Assembly: GCF_014268275.3 (NCBI RefSeq)
Contig: NZ_CP077084.1
Span: 4,712,001 to 4,776,000 of the forward strand
Direction: 5' to 3'
DNA length: 64,000 bases
Source of the DNA: Pseudomonas tritici
Lineage (GTDB): Bacteria; Pseudomonadota; Gammaproteobacteria; Pseudomonadales; Pseudomonadaceae
Shown: positions 14,726-34,126 of the stretch, one piece after another
Layout: each line of letters starts with the position of its first letter
Numbering within the stretch: the stretch's first letter is position 1
Translations under genes and position numbers: made by a program
The notes under the pieces: generated by a model
Told to the model about the DNA's origin: nothing
The model's database searches: none
Seen by the model: the letters and a program-made list of their open reading frames with translations, nothing else

Positions 14726-14941
14726 GAGTTTTCACAAGACCGGTAACATGCCGTAACTAGCCGAACGGTCAGTAGTCGGCCACGCCCCCTTGAGGCAAAA
14801 TCAACTCTTCTTTTCGTACCCAACCCAATCCGCACAACCCAGTTACCACGTGCTCAAAAGCCTGGCACTGCGTTGAAGGCAGCTGTGCACCCGCGTTTCA
14901 GGCTCAGCGTTTATTCATCCGCTAAACAAGAAGCCATCCCC

Positions 14942-16093
14942 ATGCCTCTCAAGACACTGTGCATATTCGGCACTCGCCCCGAAGCCATCAAAATGGCACC
15001 GATGGTTATCAACCTCGCGAACGACGATCGTTTCCACTCGAAAGTGTGTGTCACAGCGCAACACCGCGAGATGTTGGACCAAGTGCTTGAACTGTTTGGA
15101 CTGGTGCCTGACTACGACCTGAACATCATGACCGTCGATCAGAGCCTGACCCATGTAACCACCGCGATCATTCAAGGGCTGCAATCGGTACTGGAAGACT
15201 TCAAACCGGATGTGATCCTTGTGCATGGCGATACGGCGACCACTTTTGCGGCAAGCCTGGCGGCTTATTACCAGCAAATCCCCGTCGCGCATATCGAAGC
15301 CGGGCTGCGTACACACAACCTTTACTCACCCTGGCCAGAGGAAGGCAACCGACGCCTCACGGGCAGCCTCGCATCGATGCATTTTGCGCCCACTCAAACC
15401 TCCCGGCAGAACCTGCTGAATGAGGGCGTCCTCGCCGAGCGCATTCATGTCACGGGCAACACTGTGATCGATGCGCTGCTCAGTGTTGTCGAGAAACTGC
15501 GCTCTGCTACATCGCCACTGCGCAGCCGACTTGACCAGCAATTTTCCTTCCTGCCCCCAGGTCAGCGCATGGTCCTGGTGACGGGGCATCGCCGAGAAAA
15601 CCTTGGCGACGGTCTTGAGCGTATATGCGAGGCGTTGGCAGAAACCGCCGCGAGCTTCCCAACCGTGGCCTTTGTTTACCCTGTGCACCTGAACCCCAAT
15701 GTGCAAGAACCCGTACAACGCCGGCTGGCTGGCATCAAGAATGTGCATCTGATCGGGCCACAGGACTACCTGCCGTTTGTCTACTTGATGACCCGCGCGT
15801 ACGTGATTCTCACGGATTCGGGCGGTATCCAGGAGGAAGCGCCTGCGCTCGGCAAGCCGGTGCTGGTAACACGCGACACAACTGAACGTCCCGAAGCCGT
15901 CGACGCCGGGACGGTCCGGCTGGTGGGCACCGAGATCGCGACTATTACCCATCACCTTAAAGAGTTGCTCAGCAATGAAGCCGTCTATCGAGCGATGAGC
16001 AACGCCCACAACCCCTACGGTGACGGCAACGCTTGCGGACGCATCCGCGAAGTTCTTATCGCAACCTGGCGCGAAAACGAGGTGGCGGCATGA
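14942..16093 (+). CDS. wecB: UDP-GlcNAc 2-epimerase (non-hydrolysing)
   Basis: 383 residues starting [20 protein letters not shown], the family's N-terminal signature. Further motifs are [15 protein letters not shown] and [16 protein letters not shown], all UDP-sugar binding. It converts UDP-GlcNAc to UDP-ManNAc in the cytosol. The ribosome site is weak (AAGAAG). It overlaps the dehydrogenase gene by 4 bases (ATGA), so the pair makes UDP-ManNAcA for a surface polysaccharide. It is the first gene of the 14.9-24.9 kb glycan block. The 216 bases before it hold the end of a terminator and no promoter I can defend. Confidence 0.93.
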
Positions 16094-17352
16094 GCCTTCC
16101 AACGTTATGCGTCGTGGGCCTGGGTTACATCGGCCTGCCCACCGCTGCGCTGTTTTCCTCACCTCAACGGCAGGTCATTGGCGTCGACATCAACCAGCAC
16201 GTTGTGGACCTCGTCAATCTTGGCCAAGTGCATATCGTCGAGCCAGCGCTGGACCCGTTGGTCCACTCAGCGGTCAGCCAAGGCTATCTGCGTGCGACAA
16301 CCCAGCCAGAACCAGCGGACGCCTTCTTGATTGCCGTGCCGACGCCATTCCTGGAAAACCGTGAGCCAGACCTGAGCTGTATCAAAGCGGCCAGCCGCGC
16401 CATTGCTCCTGTGCTGAAAAAGAACGACCTCGTGATCCTGGAGTCGACATCTCCGGTCGGCACCACCGAACTGATGGCTCAATGGCTGGCCAATGCCCGC
16501 CCGGACCTGACCTTTCCCCCAACCCATGGGGAAGCCAGCGATATCCGTATCGCTCACTGCCCGGAACGTGTGCTGCCGGGTCATATCTTGGGAGAACTGG
16601 TCTCCAATGACCGAATCATCGGCGGCATGACCCCTGCCTGCTCAAGCGCAGCAGTACGGCTGTATAAACAGTGTGTTGAAGGCCAGTGCATTGTCACCGG
16701 CACACGCACCGCCGAGATGTGCAAGCTGACCGAAAACAGTTTTCGCGACGTCAATATCGCCTTCGCCAACGAACTCTCGATGATCTGCGCGCAGTTGGAG
16801 ATAGACCCATGGGAGCTGATACGCCTGGCGAACCACCATCCACGCGTAAATATCCTGCAGCCAGGGTCTGGCGTCGGCGGGCACTGTATTGCGGTCGATC
16901 CTTGGTTCATCGTCAGTAAAACGCCCGAACTGGCGCGGTTAATCCACACTGCGCGCCGGGTCAACGACAGCAAGCCACAATGGGTTATCCAACAGGTCAA
17001 GCTGGCGGTGGCGAATCTTCTATTCAAGCACCCGGGGCTTAGCGCGCACGACGTGCGAATTGCCTGCTATGGCTTGGCGTTCAAGGCAGACATCGATGAC
17101 CTGCGCGAAAGCCCCGCACTTGGCATCGCCCGGCAGTTGGCCAAGGAATTGGGGGTTACGTTGCTGCTGGTCGAGCCGAACATTCATACGCTTCCCGCCG
17201 ATCTGCGCAGCCATACATTGACCGATACGGCCTGTGCCTGGGACACCGCGCATATCCATGTGTTGTTGGTCGGGCATCGCGAGTTCAGGTCACTGCCTGC
17301 GCAACACACCCACGAGGTGGTGATTGATGCTGCCGGCGTATTGGCGAACTGA
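16090..17352 (+). CDS. wecC: UDP-N-acetyl-D-mannosamine dehydrogenase
   Basis: 420 residues. The N-terminal NAD-binding Rossmann motif is [10 protein letters not shown] (about 9-18), the central domain carries the catalytic Cys in [13 protein letters not shown], and the C-terminal UDP-binding domain has DLRESPAL. The family oxidises UDP-ManNAc twice to UDP-ManNAcA using NAD. The start codon overlaps the stop of wecB (ATGA) and only 2 bases separate it from the next gene, so translation is coupled across the three. Other UDP-hexosamine dehydrogenases look alike, but the wecB neighbour favours this substrate. Confidence 0.92.
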
Positions 17353-17354
17353 CG

Positions 17355-20300
17355 ATGAATGCCCCACGGCCACTGGCCGATACCCACGATCGCGTCATGG
17401 AAGCCTACTACGGCAAGCTGGGTGAGCACTTCATGCAGGAGACGCGCGCGCGGATCCATTGGATCTGCGCCCAGATCATCGGCAAGACAGTCCTCGACGT
17501 AGGCTGCTCTCAGGGCATCATTCCTGTATTGCTCGCCCGTGAAGGGCATGTGGTCACGGGCGTGGACAGCAGCCCCCAGGCAATCAAACAGGCCGGCGAC
17601 TATCTGCGGGCGGAACCCGACCACGTGCAGCAGAATATTTGTTACTTGAACGCAGACTTTCTGTCGCTGGATACCGAGCGTGTCGAACCTGACAGCATCG
17701 TGATCAGTGAAGTGCTTGAACACCTCATCCACCCCGCCACCTTCGTCGAGAAAGCAGCGTCGATGCTCAAACCGCATGGCCGATTGATCATCACCGTGCC
17801 ATTCGGGGTGAATGATTTTATCGATCACAAGCACACGTTCTACCTGCTGGAGCCGTTTCGGTTATTGAGTTCGCACCTGCACGTCGTCCGGATTGAAATA
17901 CTGGGCAAGTGGGTGGGAATGGTCGCCATCAAAGCCGAGCCGGGGAAGAGCTCACTGGAGCTTGACCACATCCGCCAGCTCGAAACTGCGTTCGAGTCAG
18001 TCGAGCGAAGCCTGCTTCGCCAGCTAGCCGCCAGTCGCCAACACTGGGAGCAGGCGAATCAGAAATACCGTGGAACCACTGAACACATTGACCTACTCAA
18101 GAACAAGCTTAGGCTCTGTACCCAGCAAATGGAGGCCCTGACCGCCAGCCTGCAACGCGCGGATGCCAGATGCCATCTGCTGGAAAATCGCTTGATCAAG
18201 ACGCGGGCCAGCACGACCTATCAGTTGGGTTATCAACTGCGTATGGCGGCGGGCTCGCTGCGCGAGTGCCTGCGTTTGCCAGTGGCGTTATTCAAGCTGT
18301 ACCAGCACGCCTGCGCGCGTCGCAATGGCCAAGCACCCACGTCATTCGCAGACCGTGACGCTCTCCCAACAACGTCATCTGACACCGCCGTTTTCCTTGC
18401 AACACCGGCCCCCACGCCATTGCCGGATGCAGCCTATGTGCGCAGCCAACTGATGCTCGCCCCTCATGACACGGCCAAGCCCTTCAGAATTGCCTGCGTG
18501 CTGGACACCTTTTCCCATGAGGCATACCGGTATGAAAGCGAGCTGTTGCAACTGACGCCAGAGCAGGGCCTGGCCGAGCTGCGAGCATTTAAACCGGACC
18601 TGCTGTTCATCGAATCCGCATGGCGCGGCAAGGAGGACCGCTGGCAGAACAAGATCGCCCAGAACAGCGTAGAACTGCGCGGGATCTTGCACTGGTGCCG
18701 GGAACACAAAGTGCCAACAGTGTTCTGGAACAAAGAAGACCCGGTGCACTTTGAGACGTTCCTGGGTACCGCCAAGCAGTTTGACCTGGTGTTCACCACG
18801 GATATCGACTGTATTCAACGCTATAAAAGCGCGTTGGGGCATGAGCGTGTCTACCTGCTGCCCTTCGCCTGCCAACCGGCCATACACAATCCGCTCGAAC
18901 TGTATGAACGCAAGGATGCGTTCTGCTTCGCCGGCGCCTACTACACCCGATACACCGAGCGGACCCGCGATCTGGAACACTTTATCAACGACCTGCCTGG
19001 CTTCCGTCCCCTGGAGATCTACGATCGTAACTTCGGTACCACAGAGCCCAACTATCAGTTTCCAATCCGGTATCGGGGCCACATTGCTGGCACGTTGAAC
19101 GCGGCGCAAATGGACCTGGCTTATAAGGGCTACCGCTATGCGATGAATCTCAACTCGATCAAACAGTCGCAATCCATGTTCGCCCGCCGCATCTATGAAT
19201 TACTGGGGTCCAACACCCTCACCGTCAGCAACTTTTCTCGCGGCCTGCGTGTACTGATGGGTGATCTGGTCATTTGCAGCGACAGCAGTCAGGAAGTATT
19301 ACGTCGCCTCGACACTCCCGGTGAGCACGCCAGGCAGCGGTTGGCCGGCCTGCGCAAGGTGATGCAGGAACACACCTATGCCCATCGTTTGCGCTATGTG
19401 ACGAGCAAAATCACAGGTCGCGTGGATGACGTGCCTCTGCCGACCATTTGCCTCGTCGCCGAGGCGCTCAATGACGTTCAGCTGCAGGCACTCAAGGAGC
19501 ATCTGCAACGCCAGCGCTACCCCCACGTCAATCTGCATGTCGTGGTGAACGATTCGACAACAAGGCAGCCCGCCAGCGTGGATTCCCGCTTACACCTGAT
19601 TGGGCGCAGCCAGCTGGATAACCTTACCCTGGTCGACTTGGCAAATGGCGCAGAGTGGTGTGGCGTGATGATTGCGGCTGACTACTACGGCCCTCACTAC
19701 CTGCTCGACCTGGCCTTGGCCACGCGTTACAGCAAGGCGCATGTGATCGGCAAGATGGCTCATCATGCCGCGGACAAACAAGGCGTACACCTGATAAACC
19801 CGGGTCAGGAATACCGCTGCACGCTCGGTATAGCCGCACGCCGAGCCATGATCAGGACGGTGGCAGTGGCGCAACAGCGCGCCCGTGATTGGCTGGAAAG
19901 CCTGTCAAGTCTCACCTACACGCACCCTGATTCCCTCGCGATTGACGCTTTCAACTACTGCGAAAACGCCGCAGGCAGCGATCTACAGCATGTTATCAAC
20001 GTGGTGAACGACCTTGATTTGAATACCGGTATCAGCCTCGATCAGCTTCAGCGCAGCAGTGAAGCCATCCCGCCACTGAACGCAAGTAGCTCCGGCCCGC
20101 AGACCAGCGGCGAGGGCCTGGCAAAACTGTTCGGACCACTGCGCAGTAAGCATTTGCAAGCCCAGGTCGAAGGCAACACCTGGCATATCCACTCCTCTCT
20201 CGCAGACGGAAAACACGAATACCACTACGCCAGGCAGACCTTGAGTGTTGCGCAACTAGAGGGGACCGAAGGCACATTGAGATTGATGCTCGATGCCACG

Positions 20301-21719
20301 CCGGGCCTGAACCTGCAACTGGTTGTACTGTTTCTGGATGCGCAGGCCCAACGGATCAGCCATGTCATGCAACTGGCTAATCGGAGTCAGGCCTGGGATG
20401 TACCGCCAGAGACGGCTTCCTTGCGTCTAGGCCTGCGCGTCTACGGCAATGGCAGTTCGACGATCAAGACGCTGGTTCAAGGCCATTTCGACATTCAACC
20501 CTCTACCGTCCTCGCGAAGGCTAAGCATCTGCTGCTCACCAACCACTACCCGGCCTATGGCGACCTGTATCGAAATGGTTTTATTCATACCCGTGTCTCG
20601 GCCTATCAGGAGCAGGGCCTGCCCATAGACGTCTTTCGGTTGCGACCCAACGAACCGATCAGTTATCACGAATTTGACAATGTTGACGTAGTGACCGGGC
20701 CTGGAAGCGCCTTGAAGAACATGCTTGACGCCGGACACTACACATCGGTGCTGGTGCACTTTCTGGACCTGCAGATGTGGGAAATAGTGCGCCCCTACCT
20801 GCCTCGCCTTCGATTGATTGTCTGGGTGCACGGCGCGGAGATCCAACCCTGGTGGCGTCGGGCTTACAACTACGGCGATCAAGCGCAGTTGCAACTGGGC
20901 AAGCTCGACAGCGAAAGACGCATGGCATTCTGGCGCAGCGTGCTGCAACCCATGCCACCCAATCTGCAAGTGGTATTCGTGTCGCGGCAGTTCGCCGAGG
21001 AAGCAATGGAAGACCTAGGGTTCCGGTTGCCTCATAACCAACACCGAATCATCCACAACCCCATTGATACCCGACTGTTTTCTCACGCGGAGAAAGCGCT
21101 TGAACAGCGCAAAAAGATCCTGTCGATCCGCCCCTATGTATCACGCACTTACGCCAATGATCTGAGCGTCAAAGCCATTCAACTGCTGGAGACAAAGCCT
21201 TGGTTCAACGAGCTTGAGTTCCTGATGGTGGGCGATGGGCCGTTGTTTGAAGAAACCCTTGCACCGCTGCGCAAGTACCCGAACGTCCGGATCGAAAAAG
21301 GTTACTTGAAACAATCCCAGATCGCCGACCTGCATAAACACTACGGCGTATTTCTGTGCCCCAGCCGAATGGACACTCAAGGCGTTTCTCGCGATGAAGC
21401 GATGGCCTCAGGCCTGGTCCCTATTACCAATCGGGTCGGAGCAATCCCCGAGTTTGTTGATGACGCCTGCGGTTTTTTAGCTGATCCCGAGAGTTTTACC
21501 GGGATCAGCGACGCGATAGAAACGCTGTTTTTAAACCCGGGAATGTTCAAGGAAAAGTCCTTGAACGCCAGACAACGAGTGCTGATGCAAAGCGATGTGC
21601 AATTGATCACCGCATCAGAACTAAGCCTTATACGAGAACCCCACGGTGAGCCGAGAAATCAGGGCCTTGCACCACAGTATCCTGTCGACACTCATCTGGT
21701 GCGTACACTTGGGCCGTAA
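17355..21719 (+). CDS. 1454-residue methyltransferase/glycosyltransferase fusion
   Basis: One uninterrupted frame with several enzyme-like parts. Residues 1-200: a class I SAM methyltransferase (LDVGCSQG near 48-54, Asp71 at the end of strand 2). About 200-275: a coiled coil. About 375-690: a CgeB/YkvP-like glycosyltransferase region (VFWNKEDP, then RRIYELLGSNT). About 690-880: a weaker GT2-like stretch. About 915-1045: a beta-rich stretch. About 1055-1430: a GT4 domain with MVGDGPLFEE and the nucleotide-sugar region SRDEAMASGLVP. It probably adds and caps sugars on a surface glycan. The 2-base gap after wecC indicates one operon. Exact sugars and linkage are unknown. Confidence 0.8.
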   Translation: MNAPRPLADTHDRVMEAYYGKLGEHFMQETRARIHWICAQIIGKTVLDVGCSQGIIPVLLAREGHVVTGVDSSPQAIKQAGDYLRAEPDHVQQNICYLNADFLSLDTERVEPDSIVISEVLEHLIHPATFVEKAASMLKPHGRLIITVPFGVNDFIDHKHTFYLLEPFRLLSSHLHVVRIEILGKWVGMVAIKAEPGKSSLELDHIRQLETAFESVERSLLRQLAASRQHWEQANQKYRGTTEHIDLLKNKLRLCTQQMEALTASLQRADARCHLLENRLIKTRASTTYQLGYQLRMAAGSLRECLRLPVALFKLYQHACARRNGQAPTSFADRDALPTTSSDTAVFLATPAPTPLPDAAYVRSQLMLAPHDTAKPFRIACVLDTFSHEAYRYESELLQLTPEQGLAELRAFKPDLLFIESAWRGKEDRWQNKIAQNSVELRGILHWCREHKVPTVFWNKEDPVHFETFLGTAKQFDLVFTTDIDCIQRYKSALGHERVYLLPFACQPAIHNPLELYERKDAFCFAGAYYTRYTERTRDLEHFINDLPGFRPLEIYDRNFGTTEPNYQFPIRYRGHIAGTLNAAQMDLAYKGYRYAMNLNSIKQSQSMFARRIYELLGSNTLTVSNFSRGLRVLMGDLVICSDSSQEVLRRLDTPGEHARQRLAGLRKVMQEHTYAHRLRYVTSKITGRVDDVPLPTICLVAEALNDVQLQALKEHLQRQRYPHVNLHVVVNDSTTRQPASVDSRLHLIGRSQLDNLTLVDLANGAEWCGVMIAADYYGPHYLLDLALATRYSKAHVIGKMAHHAADKQGVHLINPGQEYRCTLGIAARRAMIRTVAVAQQRARDWLESLSSLTYTHPDSLAIDAFNYCENAAGSDLQHVINVVNDLDLNTGISLDQLQRSSEAIPPLNASSSGPQTSGEGLAKLFGPLRSKHLQAQVEGNTWHIHSSLADGKHEYHYARQTLSVAQLEGTEGTLRLMLDATPGLNLQLVVLFLDAQAQRISHVMQLANRSQAWDVPPETASLRLGLRVYGNGSSTIKTLVQGHFDIQPSTVLAKAKHLLLTNHYPAYGDLYRNGFIHTRVSAYQEQGLPIDVFRLRPNEPISYHEFDNVDVVTGPGSALKNMLDAGHYTSVLVHFLDLQMWEIVRPYLPRLRLIVWVHGAEIQPWWRRAYNYGDQAQLQLGKLDSERRMAFWRSVLQPMPPNLQVVFVSRQFAEEAMEDLGFRLPHNQHRIIHNPIDTRLFSHAEKALEQRKKILSIRPYVSRTYANDLSVKAIQLLETKPWFNELEFLMVGDGPLFEETLAPLRKYPNVRIEKGYLKQSQIADLHKHYGVFLCPSRMDTQGVSRDEAMASGLVPITNRVGAIPEFVDDACGFLADPESFTGISDAIETLFLNPGMFKEKSLNARQRVLMQSDVQLITASELSLIREPHGEPRNQGLAPQYPVDTHLVRTLGP

Positions 21720-21723
21720 CTTC

Positions 21724-21930
21724 ATGAACATCGCTCCACGCGCAATGTTGATGGCTCATGCTGCGCATTTTTGCGCACAGATGTTGTTGATAACGACCCA
21801 TTTCCTGCCGATCAAGATTGTCATTCTGCTCGGCTCAGAGACGGTTCCAGCCTATTTGCCGCCGGTGCTGAAAGACCTTAATAAAATCACCCTGATCATC
21901 GGGTTAGGCCTGTTGACGGTCATCCTCTAA
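21724..21930 (+). CDS. Short membrane protein, or first part of an interrupted gene
   Basis: 68 residues from the ATG at 21724, 2 bases after the upstream fusion gene's stop. It has a hydrophobic segment IKIVILLGSE and a second one (ITLIIGLGLLTVIL) that runs right up to the TAA at 21928. The next ORF is in the same frame and the codons between (VFYLGAGF) continue the hydrophobic segment, so this may be the first part of one membrane protein broken by a stop codon. No family recognised. A frame-consistent earlier start at 21646 inside the fusion gene is less likely. Confidence 0.45.
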   Translation: MNIAPRAMLMAHAAHFCAQMLLITTHFLPIKIVILLGSETVPAYLPPVLKDLNKITLIIGLGLLTVIL

Positions 21931-21954
21931 GTTTTTTACCTAGGGGCCGGTTTT

Positions 21955-22467
21955 ATGGCGTCCCGTTACTCAAGAAACGGCGCACGCGCTCTGATAAAAC
22001 GCTGCGCAGAACCAACACTGCTCAAAACCCAATTACCCCTGGCTGCCAAAGCGTTTTCCAGATTCACACGGGGCTTATCCGATGCCGTGTTTGCCCTGAC
22101 CGTTTTCATGGCATTGCTCTACCTTTACCCGTCACTCCTGGCCGTCAGCCTTATCTATTATGCAACCGCAGCGGCTGTGCTGATTGGTTTGAACAACCGT
22201 AGTCACCGCGTGCATTCGATGCTGTCCCGCCACCCTCTCACAGTAGCCGACACATTCCATGCCACCGGTTTCCTGGTGACATTCGCCTTCATCATTGTCG
22301 ACTTTCTTTATCTGACGCCTCCCCACCTTTACATCGCGCTTATAGCGCTGATTCTCCTGCGTCAAAGCTTCAGCCGGTTGAAGGTCCTCACACAGGACGT
22401 TCTTTACCTGAGCAGTCACTCGCTGAACATCAATCGGATGTTTCTTGCCACCAACCCGATTCACTGA
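21955..22467 (+). CDS. Small inner-membrane protein of the glycan block
   Basis: 170 residues, no family recognised. After a basic N-terminus there are about four hydrophobic helices (around 45-80, 100-122 and 125-140), and the C-terminus is polar. AGGGG lies 8 bases before the ATG, so it can be translated alone, but the upstream short ORF is in the same frame and separated only by one TAA and eight sense codons. Position between glycosyltransferase genes suggests a role in glycan assembly or export, although it is too small for a Wzx flippase or Wzy polymerase. Confidence 0.55.
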   Translation: MASRYSRNGARALIKRCAEPTLLKTQLPLAAKAFSRFTRGLSDAVFALTVFMALLYLYPSLLAVSLIYYATAAAVLIGLNNRSHRVHSMLSRHPLTVADTFHATGFLVTFAFIIVDFLYLTPPHLYIALIALILLRQSFSRLKVLTQDVLYLSSHSLNINRMFLATNPIH

Positions 22468-22496: not shown

Positions 22497-23708
22497 GTGC
22501 CCCCTATCGCCATGATCGTCTGGAATGAGTTCCGCAATGACGCCCGCGTATTGAAACAAGCCCGGACACTCCAAGCGGCTGGTTATCAAGTGACAGTGTT
22601 CGCATTGCATACACCAGGCGTAACGCAGCGCCAGGAAGTACTGGCGGAAGGCATCCGTGTGATACGCGTGGCACGCAGCCTGAGATGGCGACCCGCAAGT
22701 GCTGGATCTTGCGATTCAACCGGCTCACCGCCAACAGAACAGTCGATGCCGCTGCCACGCATCCTTTCACGACTTTGGGTGCATGCAGGGCTAATGGTGC
22801 GGATCACTCTGCATCGCGCCGCAGTTGTGCATGCCCATGATGTTAATACGCTGCCCACTGCATGGCTGGCCGCCCGGCTCAGCAGAGCGAGACTGGTGTA
22901 CGACGCCCATGAAGTCAGTACCAGCCGCGAGGGGTATGCGCGCTTTCGCAAGTGGGTTGCCTGTATCGAAAAAGCCTTGATGCCCAGGGCTGAGGGCACC
23001 ATTACCACCACACAAAGCAGGGCTAAGTTCTTTGCCAGGGCCTACGGGATAACCCGTCCGCTGGTGCTGCAAAATCGTCCGTGCCTGATCGCCAGCCCAC
23101 CGAGCCAGAGGATTCGCCATGAGCTGGGTTTGAAACAGCCCTGGCCCATCGTTCTCTATCAGGGCGGCCTTCAACAGGGGCGCGGCCTGGAGCGTTTGTT
23201 ACGCGTCGCAGTCACATTGCAATGCGCTTACTTCGTACTGATCGGGGGCGGCAGGCTTACGACCCCCCTGAAGATGTTGAGCGAGGAGCTTGGCTTGACA
23301 GAGCGAGTGCACTTTATTCCGACTGTTTCATTAGCGGATTTGCCCAGCTATACCGCGTCAGCCGATATCGGTGTGCAGCCTATAGAAAATACCTGCCTGA
23401 ACCACTTCACCACCGACTCCAATAAGCTGTTCGAATACATCATCGCCGGGCTGCCCGTGGTCGCGACGGAGTTTCCGGAGATTCGCAAAATTGTCCGGTC
23501 CCACGCTGTGGGGGTGTTGGTGGCGGCAGGCTCGGATCAATCACTGCACCGGGAATTACAGCGGTTGATCGATGAACCGTTGTTACGTCAGACACTGGCC
23601 CAAAACGCAAAAAATGCCGCCTCGTCTCTAAGTTGGGAGCAGCAAGAAAGCAAATTGCTAACACTGTATGAACGCGTACTGACGGGCAAGACTGAGATGT
23701 GCATATGA
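22497..23708 (+). CDS. GT4-family glycosyltransferase
   Basis: 403 residues from a GTG at 22497 with AGGAA upstream; an ATG five codons in is an alternative. GT-B fold: the N-terminal acceptor half starts MIVWNEFRNDARVLKQA, the linker shows YDAHEV, and the C-terminal donor half has YQGGLQQGRGLERLL and EYIIAGLPVVATEFPEI, which fits the GT4 nucleotide-sugar site. It is a cytosolic or membrane-associated transferase for a surface glycan. Its stop overlaps the next glycosyltransferase start (ATGA). Donor and acceptor unknown. Confidence 0.87.
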   Translation: MPPIAMIVWNEFRNDARVLKQARTLQAAGYQVTVFALHTPGVTQRQEVLAEGIRVIRVARSLRWRPASAGSCDSTGSPPTEQSMPLPRILSRLWVHAGLMVRITLHRAAVVHAHDVNTLPTAWLAARLSRARLVYDAHEVSTSREGYARFRKWVACIEKALMPRAEGTITTTQSRAKFFARAYGITRPLVLQNRPCLIASPPSQRIRHELGLKQPWPIVLYQGGLQQGRGLERLLRVAVTLQCAYFVLIGGGRLTTPLKMLSEELGLTERVHFIPTVSLADLPSYTASADIGVQPIENTCLNHFTTDSNKLFEYIIAGLPVVATEFPEIRKIVRSHAVGVLVAAGSDQSLHRELQRLIDEPLLRQTLAQNAKNAASSLSWEQQESKLLTLYERVLTGKTEMCI

Positions 23709-24892
23709 CAGTGCGTATTCTTTTATTGAGCTATTACTTTCCGCCCGACCTGTCGGCCTTTCGCGTCGAGGCGCTGGTCAATGGCTTGCTCACCCACGGT
23801 AACGATGAGATAGCGATCGACGTGCTGACCACTCAGCCGAACCGCTACCCATCTTATAAGCTCTCCTGGGATCGCACCGCACATCAGCCAAGGCTGTCCA
23901 TCACCCGCATAGACCTGCCCACGCACGGATTCAGCGTTTGGGGCCAGGCCTTGGGGTTTGCCAACTATGCCTGCGGCGTACTTCGAGCGGTAAAAGGCAA
24001 GCAGTACGACGTGATTGTCGCGACTTCTTCCCGGCTGATGACGGCCGCACTGGGCGCCGCTATTGCGCGCCAAAAAAAGGCACCGTTCTATCTGGATATC
24101 CGAGATATCTTTGTCGACGTACTGCCTGAACTTTTCCCTGGCGTCCTGGGCAAACTCCTGGCGCAAGTATTTTCCCGCTTTGAAAAATTCACCCTTGATC
24201 GCGCAACGCGGGTAAACCTGATATCACCCGGGTTTCTGAGTTACTTCTCGGCTCGTTATCCACACAAACGCTTTTCAACTTTCACCCACGGTGTGGACGA
24301 TCTCTTTCTTGAAACCCCGTTCTATCCAGACACGCCTAACGAACCAACACGCCCACTGAAGATTGTCTACGCTGGCAATATCGGCGTCGGCCAAGGCTTG
24401 GATAAAATACTGCCATCACTGGCCGAACGGCTCGCGAACACAGCTTGTTTCTACGTGATTGGCGATGGCAGTACGATGAAAAAACTGCGCGAAACGCTGA
24501 TCAAGGGACATGTAAAGAATGTCGAGCTTATTCCGCCCATGCCCCGACACGAACTGATTCATTACTATCAGCAAGCCGATGTGCTTTTTTTGCACCTCAA
24601 TGACTTCAAGGCATTCTTGAAAGTCATTCCCTCCAAACTGTTTGAATATGCCGCTACCGGAAAGCCAATACTCGCGGGACTGGAGGGTTATTCAAAAGCG
24701 TTCACACTCAATCATATTCCCAATGCTTGCGTGTTTGCCCCCGGCAACGCGGACGCGGCGGTTGCCGCACTTGCCCGCCTTAGGCTCAGTGCGACTGACC
24801 GCGAGGCATTTTTAAGAGCGTATTCCCGAAGCACAATCCAGCAGCGCATGGCGTTCGACATTCTCGAGACCGCAAAACTTAAAGAACAGTGA
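23705..24892 (+). CDS. GT4-family glycosyltransferase (WbuB-like)
   Basis: 395 residues from the ATG at 23705 overlapping the preceding stop; a GTG two codons earlier is possible. It begins VRILLLSYYFPPDLSAFRVE, typical of WbuB/WcaI-like transferases, and has VYAGNIGVGQGLDK, YVIGDGS and KLFEYAATGKPILAGLEG in the donor half. It probably transfers an amino sugar to a lipid-linked glycan. It is the last gene of the block; 94 bases separate it from aer and no terminator is obvious. Confidence 0.87.
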   Translation: MTVRILLLSYYFPPDLSAFRVEALVNGLLTHGNDEIAIDVLTTQPNRYPSYKLSWDRTAHQPRLSITRIDLPTHGFSVWGQALGFANYACGVLRAVKGKQYDVIVATSSRLMTAALGAAIARQKKAPFYLDIRDIFVDVLPELFPGVLGKLLAQVFSRFEKFTLDRATRVNLISPGFLSYFSARYPHKRFSTFTHGVDDLFLETPFYPDTPNEPTRPLKIVYAGNIGVGQGLDKILPSLAERLANTACFYVIGDGSTMKKLRETLIKGHVKNVELIPPMPRHELIHYYQQADVLFLHLNDFKAFLKVIPSKLFEYAATGKPILAGLEGYSKAFTLNHIPNACVFAPGNADAAVAALARLRLSATDREAFLRAYSRSTIQQRMAFDILETAKLKEQ

Positions 24893-27367: not shown

Positions 27368-28792
27368 ATGAACACTACTTTAAGTACCGCCTATAACTAC
27401 AAGGTGGTCCGCCAATTCGCCATTATGACGGTGGTGTGGGGCATCGTCGGCATGGGGCTCGGGGTTTTTCTCGCTGCTCAATTGGTTTGGCCTGCACTCA
27501 ACTTCGACTTGCCCTGGACCAGCTTCGGCCGCCTGCGCCCGTTGCACACCAACGCGGTGATCTTCGCCTTCGGTGGCTGCGCGCTGTTCGCCAGCTCCTT
27601 CTACTCGGTGCAACGTACCTGCCAGACGCAGCTGTTCGCGCCGAAAATCGCCGCATTCTGCTTCTGGGGCTGGCAGCTTGTCATTCTCTTGGCCGCCATC
27701 TCCTTGCCACTGGGCTACACCAGTTCCAAGGAATACGCAGAACTGGAATGGCCGATCGACATCCTGATCACCATTGTCTGGGTGGCGTATGCCATCGTGT
27801 TCTTTGGCACGATCATGAAGCGCAACACCAAGCACATCTACGTCGGCAACTGGTTCTTCGGTGCGTTCATCATCACCGTGGCCATCCTGCATATCGTCAA
27901 CAACCTGGAAATCCCGGTCAGCCTGACCAAGTCCTACTCCCTCTACGGCGGTGCGACGGATGCCATGGTGCAGTGGTGGTATGGGCATAACGCGGTAGGA
28001 TTTTTCCTCACCGCCGGCTTCCTCGGCATGATGTATTACTTCGTGCCGAAACAGGCCGAGCGCCCGGTGTATTCCTATCGGTTGTCCATCGTGCACTTCT
28101 GGGCACTGATCACCCTGTACATCTGGGCCGGCCCGCACCACTTGCACTACACCGCGCTGCCGGACTGGGCACAGTCGCTGGGCATGGTGATGTCGCTGGT
28201 GCTGCTGGCACCGAGCTGGGGCGGCATGATCAACGGCATGATGACGTTGTCGGGTGCCTGGCATAAGTTGCGCAGCGACCCGATCCTGCGCTTCCTCGTC
28301 GTCTCCCTGGCGTTCTACGGCATGTCGACCTTCGAAGGCCCGATGATGGCGATCAAGACCGTCAACGCCCTCTCCCACTACACCGACTGGACCATCGGCC
28401 ACGTACACGCCGGCGCCCTTGGCTGGGTGGCGATGATTTCCATTGGCGCGCTGTACCACATGATCCCGAAAGTCTTCGGTCGCGAGCAGATGTACAGCCT
28501 TGGCCTGATCAACGCGCACTTCTGGCTGGCCACCATCGGCACCGTGCTCTACATCGCCTCGATGTGGGTCAACGGCATTGCCCAGGGCCTGATGTGGCGT
28601 GCGGTCAACGAAGACGGCACCTTGACCTACTCCTTCGTCGAAACCCTGGTGGCCAGCCACCCTGGCTTCATCGTGCGGTTGGTGGGCGGTGCGATCTTCC
28701 TCAGCGGCATGTTCCTGATGGCTTACAACACTTGGCGCACCGTGCGTTCGGCGCAACCTGCCGAAGTTGCCGCTGCGGCGCAGATGGCCTGA
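27368..28792 (+). CDS. ccoN: cbb3 oxidase subunit I (first operon)
   Basis: 474 residues, catalytic subunit of the cbb3 cytochrome c oxidase: twelve membrane helices carrying haem b, haem b3 and CuB. Ligand histidines are visible in [22 protein letters not shown] (CuB), [15 protein letters not shown] and HVHAGALGW. It reduces oxygen to water with high affinity and pumps protons. It is first in ccoNOQP (10-base gap to ccoO). No ANR box is visible in the 79-base gap upstream; only an imperfect repeat CCCAAG-N11-CTTGGG (27324-27346). This copy may therefore be the constitutive isoform. Confidence 0.97.
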
Positions 28793-28802
28793 GGAGTCTG
28801 TG

Positions 28803-29411
28803 ATGAAACACGAAACGATTGAAAAGAACGTCGGCCTGCTGATGCTGCTCATGGTGCTAGCCGTGAGCATCGGCGGCCTGACCCAGATCGTCCCGCTGTT
28901 CTTCCAGGACGTGACCAACAAACCGGTTGAAGGCATGAAGCCCTACACCGCGTTGCAACTGGAAGGCCGTGACATCTACATCCGCGAAGGCTGCGTACAG
29001 TGCCACTCGCAGATGATCCGCCCGTTCCGCGCCGAAACGGAACGCTACGGCCACTACTCGGTCGCCGGTGAAAGCGTGTGGGACCACCCGTTCCTGTGGG
29101 GTTCCAAGCGCACCGGGCCGGACCTGGCGCGCGTTGGCGCACGCTACTCGGACGACTGGCACCGCGCGCACTTGTACAACCCGCGCAACGTGGTGCCCGA
29201 GTCGAAAATGCCGGCCTATCCGTGGCTGGTCACCGCCCAGGTCGACAGCAGCCATACCGAGACCAAGTTGAACGTGATGCGCACCCTCGGCGTGCCCTAC
29301 ACCGACGACGACATCAGTGCCGCCGTGGCCAGCCTCAAAGGCAAGACCGAGATGGACGCGCTGGTTTCGTACCTGCAAGTACTCGGTACTGCCATCAAGA
29401 GCAAGAGGTGA
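28803..29411 (+). CDS. ccoO: cbb3 oxidase subunit II, monohaem cytochrome c (first operon)
   Basis: 202 residues with an N-terminal membrane anchor (about 10-32) and a periplasmic cytochrome c domain. The haem c motif is Cys64-x-x-Cys67-His68 (CVQCH), and the axial Met lies in SKMPAYPWL. It passes electrons from CcoP to CcoN. GAGGAG lies upstream of the ATG. It is 81% or so similar by eye to the second copy, differing mainly in the region after residue 135. Confidence 0.96.
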
Positions 29412-29414
29412 GCC

Positions 29415-29615
29415 ATGGGATTTGAATTCGATGCGGGCACCATCCGCGGCCTCGGCACGCTGGTGGTCGCCATCGCCTTTATCGGCCTGTCGCTGTGGGT
29501 GTTCAACAACCGGCGCAATGCGGAATTCGAGCAGGCGCGCCTGCTGCCCTTCGCCGATGAACCTTCTCCATCCGACGCTCAAGAAGAGCCTGCAATAAGG
29601 AGCACTCGGCCATGA
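29415..29615 (+). CDS. ccoQ: cbb3 oxidase CcoQ subunit (first operon)
   Basis: 66 residues: one membrane helix (about 10-31, [16 protein letters not shown]), then NNRR and a charged tail. CcoQ stabilises the oxidase, especially under oxygen. Its stop overlaps the ccoP start (ATGA). Its tail is longer than in the second copy and unrelated at the end. Confidence 0.93.
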
Positions 29616-30559
29616 CCCTGTTTTGGAGTACATGGATCTGCGTACTGACCCTCGGCAGCCTGATCGGCCTGACCTGGCTCTTGATCGGTACCCGCAAGGG
29701 CGAGACCAAGGGCAGCGTCGACCAGACCATGGGCCACGCCTTCGACGGTATCGAGGAATACGACAACCCGCTGCCCCAGTGGTGGTTCATGCTGTTCGCC
29801 GGCACCCTGGTGTTTGCGGTCGGCTACCTGATCCTCTACCCGGGCCTGGGCAACTGGAAAGGCGTGTTGCCGGGCTATGAAGACGGCTGGACGTCGGCCA
29901 AGGAGTGGGACAAGGAGATGGCCAAGGCCGACACCAAGTTCGGGCCGATCTTCGCCAAATTCTCGGCCATGCCGCTGGAAGAAGTCGCAAAGGACCCGCA
30001 AGCGCTGAAAATGGGCGGTCGCCTGTTCGCTTCCAACTGCTCGGTGTGCCACGGCTCGGATGCCAAGGGCGCGTTTGGTTTCCCAAACCTGGCGGACAAC
30101 ATCTGGCGCTGGGGCGGTTCGGCTGAAGCGATCAAGACCACCATCCTGAACGGCCGCCACGCGGCGATGCCGGCCTGGGGTGACATGCTCGGCGACAACG
30201 GAGTGAAAAACGTCGCTGCGTACGTCCGCCACGACGTGGCCAAGCTGCCATTGCCTGCCGACAGCACCGCTGACCTGGCCGCAGGCCAAGCGGCGTTCAA
30301 CACCACGTGTGTCGCGTGCCACGGTCCAGAAGGCCACGGCATGGAAGCCATGGGCGCACCCGACCTGACCAAACCGGCCGGCTACATCTACGGCACCAGC
30401 CTCGCGCAGTTGCAGCAGACCATCCGTCACGGCCGCCAAGGCCAAATGCCGGCGCAGGAAGTGCTGCAAGGTAACGATAAGGTGCACTTGTTGGCCGCGT
30501 ATGTTTACAGCCTGTCCCACAACGCTGATGGTGCAACGCCAGAAAGCCAGCCCGAGTGA
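29612..30559 (+). CDS. ccoP: cbb3 oxidase subunit III, dihaem cytochrome c (first operon)
   Basis: 315 residues. Two N-terminal membrane helices (about 5-25 and 58-78) precede two periplasmic cytochrome c domains with haem motifs CSVCH (143-147) and CVACH (233-237); Met ligands lie in AAMPAWGDM and GQMPAQEVL. It takes electrons from soluble cytochromes and passes them to CcoO. Last gene of the first operon; a hairpin follows at 30568. Confidence 0.97.
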
Positions 30560-30567
30560 CCTCTGAA

Positions 30568-30590
30568 TGCCGCCCCAACTTGGGGCGGCA
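30568..30590 (+). terminator. GC-rich hairpin after the first cco operon
   Basis: Perfect 10-bp stem TGCCGCCCCA / TGGGGCGGCA with an ACT loop, 9 bases after the ccoP stop. No T run follows, so it may only attenuate or protect the mRNA end. Confidence 0.55.
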
Positions 30591-30605
30591 GCTCTACCCC
30601 GCTAC

Positions 30606-30620
30606 GCGACCAAGTGTCGC
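30606..30620. promoter_or_regulatory. GCGAC-N5-GTCGC palindrome upstream of the second ccoN
   Basis: GCGACCAAGTGTCGC followed by ACCCTT. The same element with the same tail lies at 35044 before ccoG. The form matches the GCGNC-N-GNCGC site described for PrrA/RegA, whose Pseudomonas relative is RoxR; RoxR binding here is inference. Confidence 0.45.
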
Positions 30621-30697
30621 ACCCTTCCAAAGCACACCTTTCCCCCCCTCACTTTCGGGTCTACGCTTGTTCCCACAGCGGACCAATTCTGGCGTAC

Positions 30698-30714
30698 GCA
30701 ACGACATGCGTTGC
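30698..30714. promoter_or_regulatory. GCAACG-N5-CGTTGC palindrome
   Basis: A perfect 6-bp inverted repeat within the 350-base gap before the second ccoN (30560-30909). No regulator can be named. Confidence 0.35.
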
Positions 30715-30811
30715 GACCCCAAAATTTTCCTGTCCACTTGATCAGCTTTCTATTTCGGATTTTATCCCTACGCTAAACATGGAAAGGGCGCAGAATCTGG
30801 CGTGGAACGCA

Positions 30812-30825
30812 TTGATACAGGTCAG
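30812..30825 (+). promoter_or_regulatory. Candidate ANR box for the second cco operon
   Basis: TTGATACAGGTCAG has a perfect left half-site and a near GTCAA right half-site, spaced N4. With the box at -41.5 the start of transcription would be about 30860, some 50 bases before ccoN. Confidence 0.5.
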
Positions 30826-30843
30826 CCATTGCGTTGCAATGGC
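30825..30843. promoter_or_regulatory. 19-bp perfect palindrome overlapping the ccoN promoter
   Basis: GCCATTGC-GTT-GCAATGGC, perfect 8-bp arms, abuts the candidate ANR box. It would cover the -35 to -17 area of an ANR-driven promoter, the place for a repressor. Confidence 0.5.
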
Positions 30844-30909
30844 CCCTCGCTTTCTCCATACTTGCGGCCGATTTTACCTATAAAAAAACCTAAACCGTGG
30901 AACCTTAGA

Positions 30910-32352
30910 ATGAGCACAGCAATCAGTCCGACTGCTTATAACTATAAGGTAGTCCGCCAGTTCGCCATCATGACGGTGGTCTGGGGGATCCTTGGCATGG
31001 GGCTCGGGGTGTTTATCGCCTCGCAACTGGTTTGGCCGGAATTGAATTTCGGTTTGCCATGGACGACCTTTGGCCGCCTGCGCCCGCTGCACACCAACCT
31101 GGTGATCTTCGCCTTCGGCGGATGTGCATTGTTTGCCACCTCCTACTATGTCGTGCAGCGAACCTGCCAGACGCGACTGATCTCCGACAGCCTCGCGGCC
31201 TTCACCTTCTGGGGTTGGCAAGCGGTCATTGTCGGCGCCATCGTCACCCTGCCACTGGGGTACACCACCACCAAGGAATACGCCGAGCTGGAATGGCCCA
31301 TCGCCATTTTGCTTGCCATTGTGTGGGTGACCTATGCCGTGGTGTTCTTCGGTACCATCGTCAAGCGCAAGACCAAGCACATCTATGTGGGCAACTGGTT
31401 CTACGGCGCCTTTATCCTGGTGACGGCGATGCTGCACATCGTCAACCACGCCTCGTTGCCGGTCAGCCTGTTCAAGTCTTACTCGGCTTACGCCGGGGCG
31501 ACTGACGCGATGATCCAGTGGTGGTACGGCCACAACGCCGTAGGGTTTTTCCTCACCACCGGTTTCCTGGGGATGATGTACTACTTCGTGCCGAAACAGG
31601 CCGAACGTCCTATTTACTCGTACCGCCTGTCCATCGTGCACTTCTGGGCGCTGATCACCCTGTACATCTGGGCCGGCCCGCACCACTTGCACTACACCGC
31701 GTTGCCGGACTGGGCGCAGTCCCTGGGCATGGCAATGTCGATCATCCTGCTGGCCCCGAGCTGGGGCGGCATGATCAACGGCATGATGACCCTGTCGGGG
31801 GCCTGGCATAAATTGCGCACTGACCCGATCCTGCGCTTCCTCGTGGTATCGCTGGCGTTCTACGGCATGTCGACCTTTGAAGGGCCGATGATGGCGATCA
31901 AGACCGTCAACTCGCTGTCCCACTACACCGACTGGACCATCGGCCACGTACACGCCGGTGCGCTCGGTTGGGTCGCGATGATCTCCATCGGCGCGATCTA
32001 CCACATGATCCCCAGACTGTTCGGCCGCGTGCAGATGCACAGTGTCGGGCTGATCAACACGCACTTCTGGCTGGCGACCATCGGTACCGTGCTCTACATC
32101 GCCTCGATGTGGGTCAACGGCATCACCCAGGGCCTGATGTGGCGTGCAATCAACGATGACGGCACCCTCACCTACTCCTTCGTCGAAGCGCTGCAGGCCA
32201 GCCATCCGGGCTTTATCGTCCGCGCGTTGGGCGGTGCGTTCTTTGCCACCGGCATGCTGTTCATGGCCTACAACGTCTGGCGCACCGTGCGTGCCTCGGA
32301 CCCTGCCGAAGCCGAAGCCGCCGCCAAGATCGCCGTTGTGGGAGCCCACTGA
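30910..32352 (+). CDS. ccoN: cbb3 oxidase subunit I (second operon)
   Basis: 480 residues, complete catalytic subunit with the same haem and CuB ligands as the first copy ([35 protein letters not shown]). It differs from the first mostly at residues 1-10, 75-95 and in a longer Ala-rich C-terminus. The frame is open from 30802 but the ATG at 30910 matches the first copy's start. A candidate ANR box and two palindromes lie upstream, so this is probably the oxygen-regulated isoform. Its stop overlaps the ccoO start (TGATG). Confidence 0.97.
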
Positions 32353-32960
32353 TGAAGCATGAAGTAGTCGAGAAGAATATCGGCCTGCTGGCCTTCTTCA
32401 TGGTCATCGCCGTGAGTATCGGCGGCCTGACCCAGATCGTTCCGCTGTTTTTCCAGGACGTCACCAACAAGCCGGTGGAAGGCATGAAGCCGCGCACCGC
32501 GCTTGAACTGGAAGGCCGCGACGTCTACATCGCCAACGGTTGTGTCGGCTGCCACTCGCAGATGATCCGTCCGTTCCGCGCCGAAACCGAACGCTACGGC
32601 CACTACTCGGTCGCCGGCGAAAGCGTGTGGGACCACCCATTCCTGTGGGGTTCCAAACGTACCGGCCCGGATTTGGCGCGTGTCGGCGGTCGTTACTCTG
32701 ATGACTGGCAACGTGCGCACTTGTACAACCCGCGCAACGTTGTGCCTGAGTCGAAAATGCCAGCGTACCCGTTCCTCGTGGAAAACAAGCTCGACGGCAA
32801 GGACACCGCGAAGAAGATGGAAGTCTTGCGCACCCTGGGCGTGCCCTACACCGACGAAGACATCGCCGGTGCAGCCGCAGCAGTGAAAGGCAAGACCGAA
32901 ATGGACGCATTGGTGGCCTACCTGCAAGGCCTTGGCACCATCATCAAAAGCAAACGGTGA
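32352..32960 (+). CDS. ccoO: cbb3 oxidase subunit II (second operon)
   Basis: 202 residues, N-terminal membrane anchor and a monohaem cytochrome c domain with CVGCH at 64-68. It has the same length and layout as the first copy; it differs in the linker after residue 135 ([14 protein letters not shown] against [13 protein letters not shown]). Start overlaps the ccoN stop by one base, so translation is coupled. Confidence 0.96.
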
Positions 32961-32966
32961 TTCTTC

Positions 32967-33152
32967 ATGGATATCGGGATGATTCGTGGCTTGGGCACCG
33001 TTGTGGTGATGGTGGCCTTTATCGGCCTGGCGTTGTGGGTGTTCAGCCCCAAGCGCAAGTCGGAGTTTGAAGACGCGACCTTGCTGCCCTTTGCGGATGA
33101 TCCCGAAGCCATCAAGCACGTCGAGCAAGCTTCTAGGAGTAACAAAGAATGA
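32967..33152 (+). CDS. ccoQ: cbb3 oxidase CcoQ subunit (second operon)
   Basis: 61 residues with one membrane helix ([15 protein letters not shown]) followed by [20 protein letters not shown], matching the first copy up to about residue 48. The stop overlaps the ccoP start (ATGA). Confidence 0.92.
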
Positions 33153-34126
33153 CTACGTTCTGGAGTCTGTACGTCACAGTCCTCAGTCTGGGTACCATCT
33201 TCGCCCTGACCTGGCTGCTGCTGTCGACCCGCAAGGGCCAGCGCGCCGAGCAAACCGACGAGACTGTCGGCCACTCGTTCGACGGCATCGAGGAGTACGA
33301 CAACCCACTGCCCAAGTGGTGGTTCATGCTGTTTGTCGGCACCATCATCTTCGCCCTCGGCTACCTGGTGCTGTACCCGGGCCTGGGCAATTGGAAGGGC
33401 CTGCTGCCGGGCTACAACTACCTCGACAACGACAAGCAAACCGCTTTCGCCAATGGCCAGACCGGTTGGACCGGCGTGCACGAGTGGGAAAAGGAAATGG
33501 CCAGGTCGGACGCCAAGTTCGGGCCGATCTTCGCCAAATTCGCCTCGATGCCGATTGAGGAAGTCGCCAAGGATCCGCAAGCCTTGAAGATGGGGGGCCG
33601 CCTGTTCGCCTCCAACTGCTCGGTGTGCCACGGTTCCGACGCCAAGGGCGCCTATGGCTTCCCCAACCTGACCGACGCCGACTGGCGATGGGGTGGCGAG
33701 CCCGCCACCATCAAGGAAACCATCATGAAGGGCCGCCATGCCGTGATGCCGGCCTGGCTGGATATCCTCAAGGAACAAGGCGTCAGCGATGTCGCCGCCT
33801 TCGTGGTGACCAACCTCGACGGTCGCAAGCTGCCAGAAGGCGTCAAGGCTGACGTGGCCAACGGCGAAAAACTCTTCGCCGCCAACTGCGTGGCCTGCCA
33901 TGGCCCGGCCGGTAAAGGCACGCCCGCCATGGGCGCACCCGACCTGACCCACCCGGGTGCATTCATCTACGGTTCGAGCTTCGCCCAACTGCAACAGACC
34001 ATCCGTTGGGGCCGCCAGGGCCAGATGCCTGCGCAGGAGCAACTGCAGGGGAACGACAAGGTGCACTTGCTGGCAGCCTATGTTTACAGCTTGTCCCATG
34101 GGGATAAGAAGGCTGAAGAGCAGTAA
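33149..34126 (+). CDS. ccoP: cbb3 oxidase subunit III (second operon)
   Basis: 325 residues with two membrane helices and two cytochrome c domains (CSVCH and CVACHG). Relative to the first copy there is an insertion of about ten residues after LLPGY ([14 protein letters not shown]), in the linker before the first haem domain. It ends the second operon before a strong terminator. Confidence 0.97.

Follow-up and report, generated by a model that had tools for sequence, protein, structure and literature searches.

What is the function of a bacterial protein that carries a methyltransferase at one end, several glycosyltransferases (GTs) at the other and a coiled coil between them? We investigated this question for a 1454-residue protein, hereafter the giant, encoded in a 64,000-nucleotide stretch of Pseudomonas tritici DNA (the window; contig NZ_CP077084.1, positions 4,712,001 to 4,776,000 of the forward strand). 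The first-pass annotation, made from the letters alone, had read the gene as a fusion within an operon for a glycan containing N-acetylmannosaminuronic acid (ManNAcA). According to our analysis, the giant appears to be the polymerase of a ManNAcA-containing surface polysaccharide that carries its own terminator, a reading to which we give a probability of about 0.6.

The giant gene reads as a single uninterrupted frame, and the domain order proposed for it was confirmed by Pfam together with a structure model of the GT part. Reading from the N-terminus, a class-I S-adenosylmethionine (SAM) methyltransferase is followed by a short coiled coil and then by four domains, which are CgeB-like, GT-A-like, beta-rich and, at the C-terminus, GT4 (Table 1). 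The N-terminal domain scored 53 bits with PF13489 (cut-off 27) and 51 bits with PF08241 (cut-off 21), and its SAM motif lines up with those of 3cc8, UbiG and 4kdr; this motif and the family profile together argue for a class-I SAM methyltransferase. In the CgeB-like domain, E615 is kept in 40 of 41 aligned sequences. The C-terminal domain has the GT-B fold and the conserved active-site residues of GT4. Missing catalytic residues, named by the first-pass annotation as grounds for abandoning its proposal, were not encountered, the SAM and GT4 residues both being present. The stretch that it had called GT2-like fared less well: residues 695-929 adopt a GT-A-like fold by model only, no Pfam GT2 match was obtained at E ≤ 0.1 and the DxD motif is incomplete. 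Structure predictions covered the GT part of the giant and the membrane protein of one relative. Among the fold-search matches listed, the matched part was residues 726-1103 of the GT-part model, and a BFVD structure search with the GT part gave general glycosyltransferase matches only. After the coil, residues ~291-320 form a candidate amphipathic helix, with a hydrophobic moment of up to 0.50 (95th percentile of the protein, 0.45). The 6.24-Mb genome of the strain holds one full-length copy of the giant and, as paralogues, nothing beyond short methyltransferase or GT4 matches. A search of phage records returned two methyltransferase matches and nothing else; therefore, a phage origin is not suggested.

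The coupling to wecB and wecC, also claimed at first, was upheld. The wecC stop and the ATG of the giant are separated by 2 nt. Both upstream open reading frames (ORFs) open with TTG, at 14873 for wecB and 16033 for wecC, and the ATG codons at 14942 and 16090 were picked as starts, the former from the sequence and the latter overlapping the wecB stop. Thirty loci were compared by tblastn (the window, 26 genome-contig loci, two plasmids and one further genome), and wecB, wecC and the GT block co-occur in all of them; homologues always split into separate genes unrelated to ManNAcA loci, the other outcome that the first-pass annotation had set against itself, did not appear. Within this set, wecB is partial in L022, the GT block of L030 is cut by the locus end, wecB and wecC lie 6-8 kb off on the opposite strand in L032, and the giant is on the opposite strand in L051.

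We then examined the part of the protein that joins the methyltransferase to the GT block. The protein search with the window giant matched 1665 of 7994 scored candidates, and the best 120 of the 1665 were examined; a Bordetella query matched 2426 of 7990. Over 122 rows, in which some proteins occur twice, the spacer varies from 182 to 1052 residues (median 598), and the GT block match is near-constant (1009-1072, mean 1052, standard deviation 6). The 14 spacers inspected contain 0-2.7% Pro and 31-42% Q/E/K/R, and in 11 of them no more than 15 of 300 shuffles equalled the hydrophobic heptad signal. Spacer length is different in 724 of the 843 pairs whose GT blocks are 90% identical or more. 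Tandem DNA repeats occur in the N-terminal part of the giant gene in 8 of 28 locus genes, with periods of 105 nt (L014, L016, L026), 117 nt (L015, L019, L024), 63 nt (L013) and 237 nt (L032). The 105- and 117-nt repeats are in frame within the coiled-coil part and are likely a source of the spacer length variation. Repeat-sized steps of 39 residues separate P0057 from P0064 (99.5%), of 70 residues P0040 from P0042 (99.5%) and of 78 residues L017 from P0051 (99.4%), and one extra 35-residue unit is visible in the alignment of L016 with L026 (95.8% GT identity). In the window giant gene the tandem repeat search found none. A rule of heptad steps was tried and dropped, since many of the length differences are not divisible by 7.

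The methyltransferase is itself exchangeable. It is N-terminal in 21 of the 30 loci, being of the window type in 18 and of the FkbM type in three (L023, L025, L027); a fourth FkbM match (L029) is a separate gene. Over 1389 alignment columns spanning coil and GTs, P0114 and P0217 are 75% identical, yet their methyltransferases belong to different families. P0008, near the window protein, retains residues 1-24 and the match picks up again at residue 243. In the tree, methyltransferase losses are interspersed among methyltransferase-bearing relatives; with 83 chosen rows, six labels required 23 changes, and the presence of a methyltransferase within the coil proteins changed 9 times. These counts are rough, because the automatic architecture labels contain errors: spurious GT-profile starts in the coil misplaced P0011, P0061 and P0105; L032 was labelled coil-only via its annotated start, a methyltransferase match (38%) lying upstream in the same longer frame; and contig ends may have truncated some of the coil-only proteins (P0208 is without a start Met). 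Eleven betaproteobacterial-type proteins (P0132, P0136, P0138, P0140, P0143, P0149, P0150, P0154, P0160, P0162, P0164) have methyltransferase Pfams and a GT block that begins at residue 64-66, so that the methyltransferase must lie behind the GT block and there is no N-terminal coil. In L029, a deacetylase-plus-methyltransferase gene adjoins the giant. Given the swaps, the rear position and the neighbouring gene, a methyltransferase recurs with the giant's polymerase via several routes. As a separate observation, the SAM motif of the methyltransferase domain has departed in P0113, which retains coil and GT block.

The following mechanism is proposed. WecB and WecC, going by their named families, would make UDP-ManNAcA, and the C-terminal block (CgeB-like GT-B, GT-A-like, beta-rich and GT4) would lengthen the chain at the membrane, on a primer probably built by the two downstream GT4s. 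The presence of two GT-B sites suggests a two-linkage repeat. The coiled coil would space the N-terminal methyltransferase off the polymerase, such that only chains at least as long as the coil could reach it, and those chains would receive a methyl cap. The anatomy of such a system, with a terminating enzyme at one end of a coil and a polymerase at the other, is present as anatomy only, from Pfam, model, composition and heptad test. As far as sequences can speak, the ruler gains support from the variable coil between conserved ends, the repeat-unit steps in some close pairs and the methyltransferase swap. The length control put forward by the first-pass annotation is supported to this extent; nevertheless, it is still a role that we infer, and a classical ATP-binding cassette (ABC) exporter was not found in the genome.

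Several observations weigh against this proposal. The window coil, of ~78 residues, is at the short end of the series. L017, L018 and L020 have long spacers, yet no tandem array was detected in them, and the steps of 32 residues between P0034 and P0044 (99.5%) and of 24 residues between P0081 and P0088 (99.1%) are not repeat-sized. The heptad test failed in three of the 14 spacers (P0105, L027, L032); of its controls, the GT block did not pass (39/300) and the methyltransferase domain did (3/300), so the signal is not coil-specific. The first Asp of the DxD motif in the GT-A-like domain is absent in 41 of 41 aligned sequences. Five of 23 Pseudomonas loci (L005, L006, L007, L008, L012) keep coil and GT block without a methyltransferase. 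This loss is real, because there the shortened gene directly adjoins wecC or overlaps with it, and the cap is thus dispensable where coil and GTs remain without it. Finally, no KpsM/Wzm-type exporter was found in the strain's own genome, the single PF01061 match being a YadH-type permease (PRK15066, 420 bits, cut-off 225). Wzt_C (PF14524) was not found there either, and KpsC/KpsS (PF05159) gave 0 matches; the controls in E. coli and B. subtilis did give matches. The genome's single ABC2 permease was considered as the exporter and rejected, being of the YadH type and accompanied by a DrrA-like ATPase.

The membrane-protein gene behind the giant brings in another explanation, namely that what the window lineage retains is a remnant, decaying or specialised: with a shortened coil and a short membrane protein that contains a stop, little or no polymer would be made. 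This gene is present in 23 of 23 Pseudomonas loci, with intact copies in relatives, and the window copy is interrupted by an in-frame stop that may impair the pathway in this strain. In the window clade the protein is of the short form, which lacks the kinase-fold domain; heparinase, DUF6270 and lipoprotein genes were not found in the loci of this clade, and the near kin L005 and P0008 lost the methyltransferase. However, the frames of the giant, wecB, wecC and both GT4s are open in the window, six related loci (L005-L010) have open short-form membrane genes, and the stop could be a sequencing error. We regard decay as possible, if doubtful.

The membrane protein of a relative (L016:17499-19238, ~580 residues) is predicted by the model to combine an ABC-exporter-like helical bundle with a domain of the aminoglycoside phosphotransferase (APH)/choline-kinase fold, in which 53 of 56 sequences have His, Asn or Gln at the metal-binding position of the DFG Asp. 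The ~580-residue protein (also P0221-P0304) gave zero Pfam or NCBIfam matches, and it is likewise present in the other polysaccharide-like loci L046-L050. In the sample of the order, the membrane-protein search found 7 of 390 genomes, own included, so the protein is rare in that sample. It is conceivable, though quite improbable, that Pseudomonas performs ruler-type termination without a classical ABC exporter, the bundle and APH-fold protein replacing it and reading the capped end like the binding module of Wzt, and the 35- and 39-residue repeats letting length drift so that strains have chain lengths of their own. Were the membrane protein to stand in for the ABC exporter, a previously unknown step of export or quality control would be added.

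Alternatively, the methyltransferase could act on internal sugars or on the lipid primer, and the coil would be a flexible or oligomerising scaffold whose length is unselected. The five loci that keep the coil without a methyltransferase and the 11 proteins with a rear methyltransferase are consistent with this, and fast repeat-driven length change would fit weak constraint. Against it, the plan is the same as that of tested terminators, as far as these are described in excerpts of PMC11231755, and the coil is retained between swapped methyltransferase families. We consider internal methylation with a scaffold unlikely. CgeB/GT4 multidomain proteins are used in protein glycosylation too, and the giant, a multidomain CgeB-like protein with chemotaxis receptor genes on both sides of its locus, might modify a protein such as flagellin; but no flagellin gene is among the annotated neighbours (part of the window was annotated), related loci hold heparinase-like, export and deacetylase genes, and wecB and wecC accompany all 30 loci, which makes this very improbable.

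On the 3' side of the giant, the membrane-protein gene comes first, then a pair of GT4 genes and then a gene for a chemotaxis receptor (Table 1). The first GT4 gene has matches in 25 of the 30 loci, among them a distant one (L029, 24%) and a cut one (L025); the second has matches in 23 of 30, one distant only (L029, 23%). Beyond the locus, at 28767-34126 of the window, come cbb3 cytochrome oxidase genes (FixO, COX1, two FixP-type) and then FixG- and copper-ATPase-like genes. Elsewhere in the genome, a second Epimerase_2 (wecB-type) gene stands near a Glycos_transf_4 gene (G000:C1:2069998-2073168), perhaps in an O-antigen locus, and there are two Poly_export and two Glycos_transf_4 matches.

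Table 1. Features of the giant gene and its neighbours in the window (residue numbers refer to the giant).
Feature	Position	Strand	Basis
wecB, non-hydrolysing UDP-GlcNAc 2-epimerase	14942..16093	+	TIGR00236, 508 bits (cut-off 210)
wecC, UDP-ManNAc dehydrogenase	16090..17352	+	NF008286/PRK11064, 680 bits (cut-off 459)
Giant, methyltransferase - coiled coil - glycosyltransferase protein, 1454 residues	17355..21719	+	open frame, Pfam, homologues
Methyltransferase domain, ~31-190; SAM motif VLDVGCSQG at 46-54	17445..17924	+	Pfam Methyltransf_11/23, alignment
Short coiled-coil spacer, ~200-278 (~78 residues), zero proline	17952..18188	+	composition, heptad test
CgeB-like domain, ~376-687, GT-B by model	18480..19415	+	PF13524 at 575-681, model
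GT-A-like domain (by model), ~695-929, incomplete DxD (A774-x-D776)	19437..20141	+	model, alignment columns
Beta-rich domain, ~932-1044	20148..20486	+	secondary structure of model
C-terminal GT4 domain, ~1054-1427	20514..21635	+	
Membrane-protein gene, short form, one in-frame stop in first half	21646..22467	+	frames compared with L009 and L010; tblastn, 75% to L010 protein
GT4 glycosyltransferase	22497..23708	+	Pfam
GT4 glycosyltransferase, WcaI-like	23699..24892	+	Pfam; NCBIfam below WcaI cut-off

The giant was matched in 18 of 298 genomes of the genus, in 15 of them (own included) over ~1000 residues or more and in the other three over ~420 residues only, with 34-35% identity. In the sample of the class it was found in 2 of 369 genomes, own included, and is rare there. 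With 15 of 298 and 2 of 369, the family is widespread in taxa yet sporadic. P0025, a 56% relative, is labelled Escherichia coli in one source and is perhaps, as a guess, a mislabelled Pseudomonas assembly. Some members carry extra parts: another N-terminal stretch in P0219, a polysaccharide deacetylase Pfam in P0180 and a C-terminal extension in P0184. In the literature searched we recognised no description of the giant family; a survey of the chemistry of chain termination from 2019 (Glycobiology 29:822), known from a reference list, may include it.

Glycan-length rulers made of coiled coil have so far been tested in a few O-antigen systems. The giant family offers a natural series, in which nearly the same polymerase and methyltransferase are joined by spacers of ~180-1050 residues and the methyltransferase is naturally swapped or lost. 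The polysaccharides of such strains could test the ruler model without engineering.

We finally compared the giant with known systems. A related GT block with wecB and wecC stands beside KpsM/KpsT-type exporter genes in three related loci (L029, L030, L033), as in Kps-type ABC-transporter capsule loci; unlike these, the window's genome yielded neither a KpsC/S match nor a KpsM-type gene. WbdD of E. coli O8/O9a, as partly described in PMC3482155 and PMC11231755, has an N-terminal methyltransferase set on a coiled-coil ruler and gives a methyl or methyl-phosphate cap, which resembles what is proposed for the giant, and its amphipathic helix (excerpts of PMC11231755) may be compared with the candidate helix after the giant's coil. 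In contrast, its polymerase WbdA is a separate protein, and the O9a WbdD carries a kinase; a WbdD chain was not among the 54 PDB sequences listed. WbbB of Klebsiella O12, in the same excerpts (PMC11231755), brings a terminator, a coiled-coil ruler and a pair of polymerising GTs together in a single protein, as the giant appears to do; unlike it, WbbB terminates with 3-deoxy-D-manno-octulosonic acid (Kdo) by a GT99 module in place of a methyltransferase and depends on an ABC transporter. The closest plan is that of Klebsiella pneumoniae O7 ORF6, which, according to these excerpts, consists of a methyltransferase-kinase, a domain like a carbohydrate-binding module, a coiled coil and two GT2 modules (PMC11231755). 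Because an ABC exporter, a defining component of such systems, was looked for and not found in the genome, we liken the window system to WbdD, WbbB and O7 ORF6 without filing it as a member. Judged by description, O7 ORF6 shares with the giant an N-terminal methyltransferase, a central coil and C-terminal GTs in one polypeptide; it differs by the kinase between methyltransferase and coil, by GT2 rhamnosyltransferase modules and by wzm/wzt (PMC11231755, in part), where the window protein has no kinase domain, CgeB-like and GT4 modules and wecB/wecC, with no wzm/wzt-like gene found in the genome. The kind of protein to which the giant belongs is therefore already known, since its plan is that of O7 ORF6, minus the kinase and with GT modules of other types.

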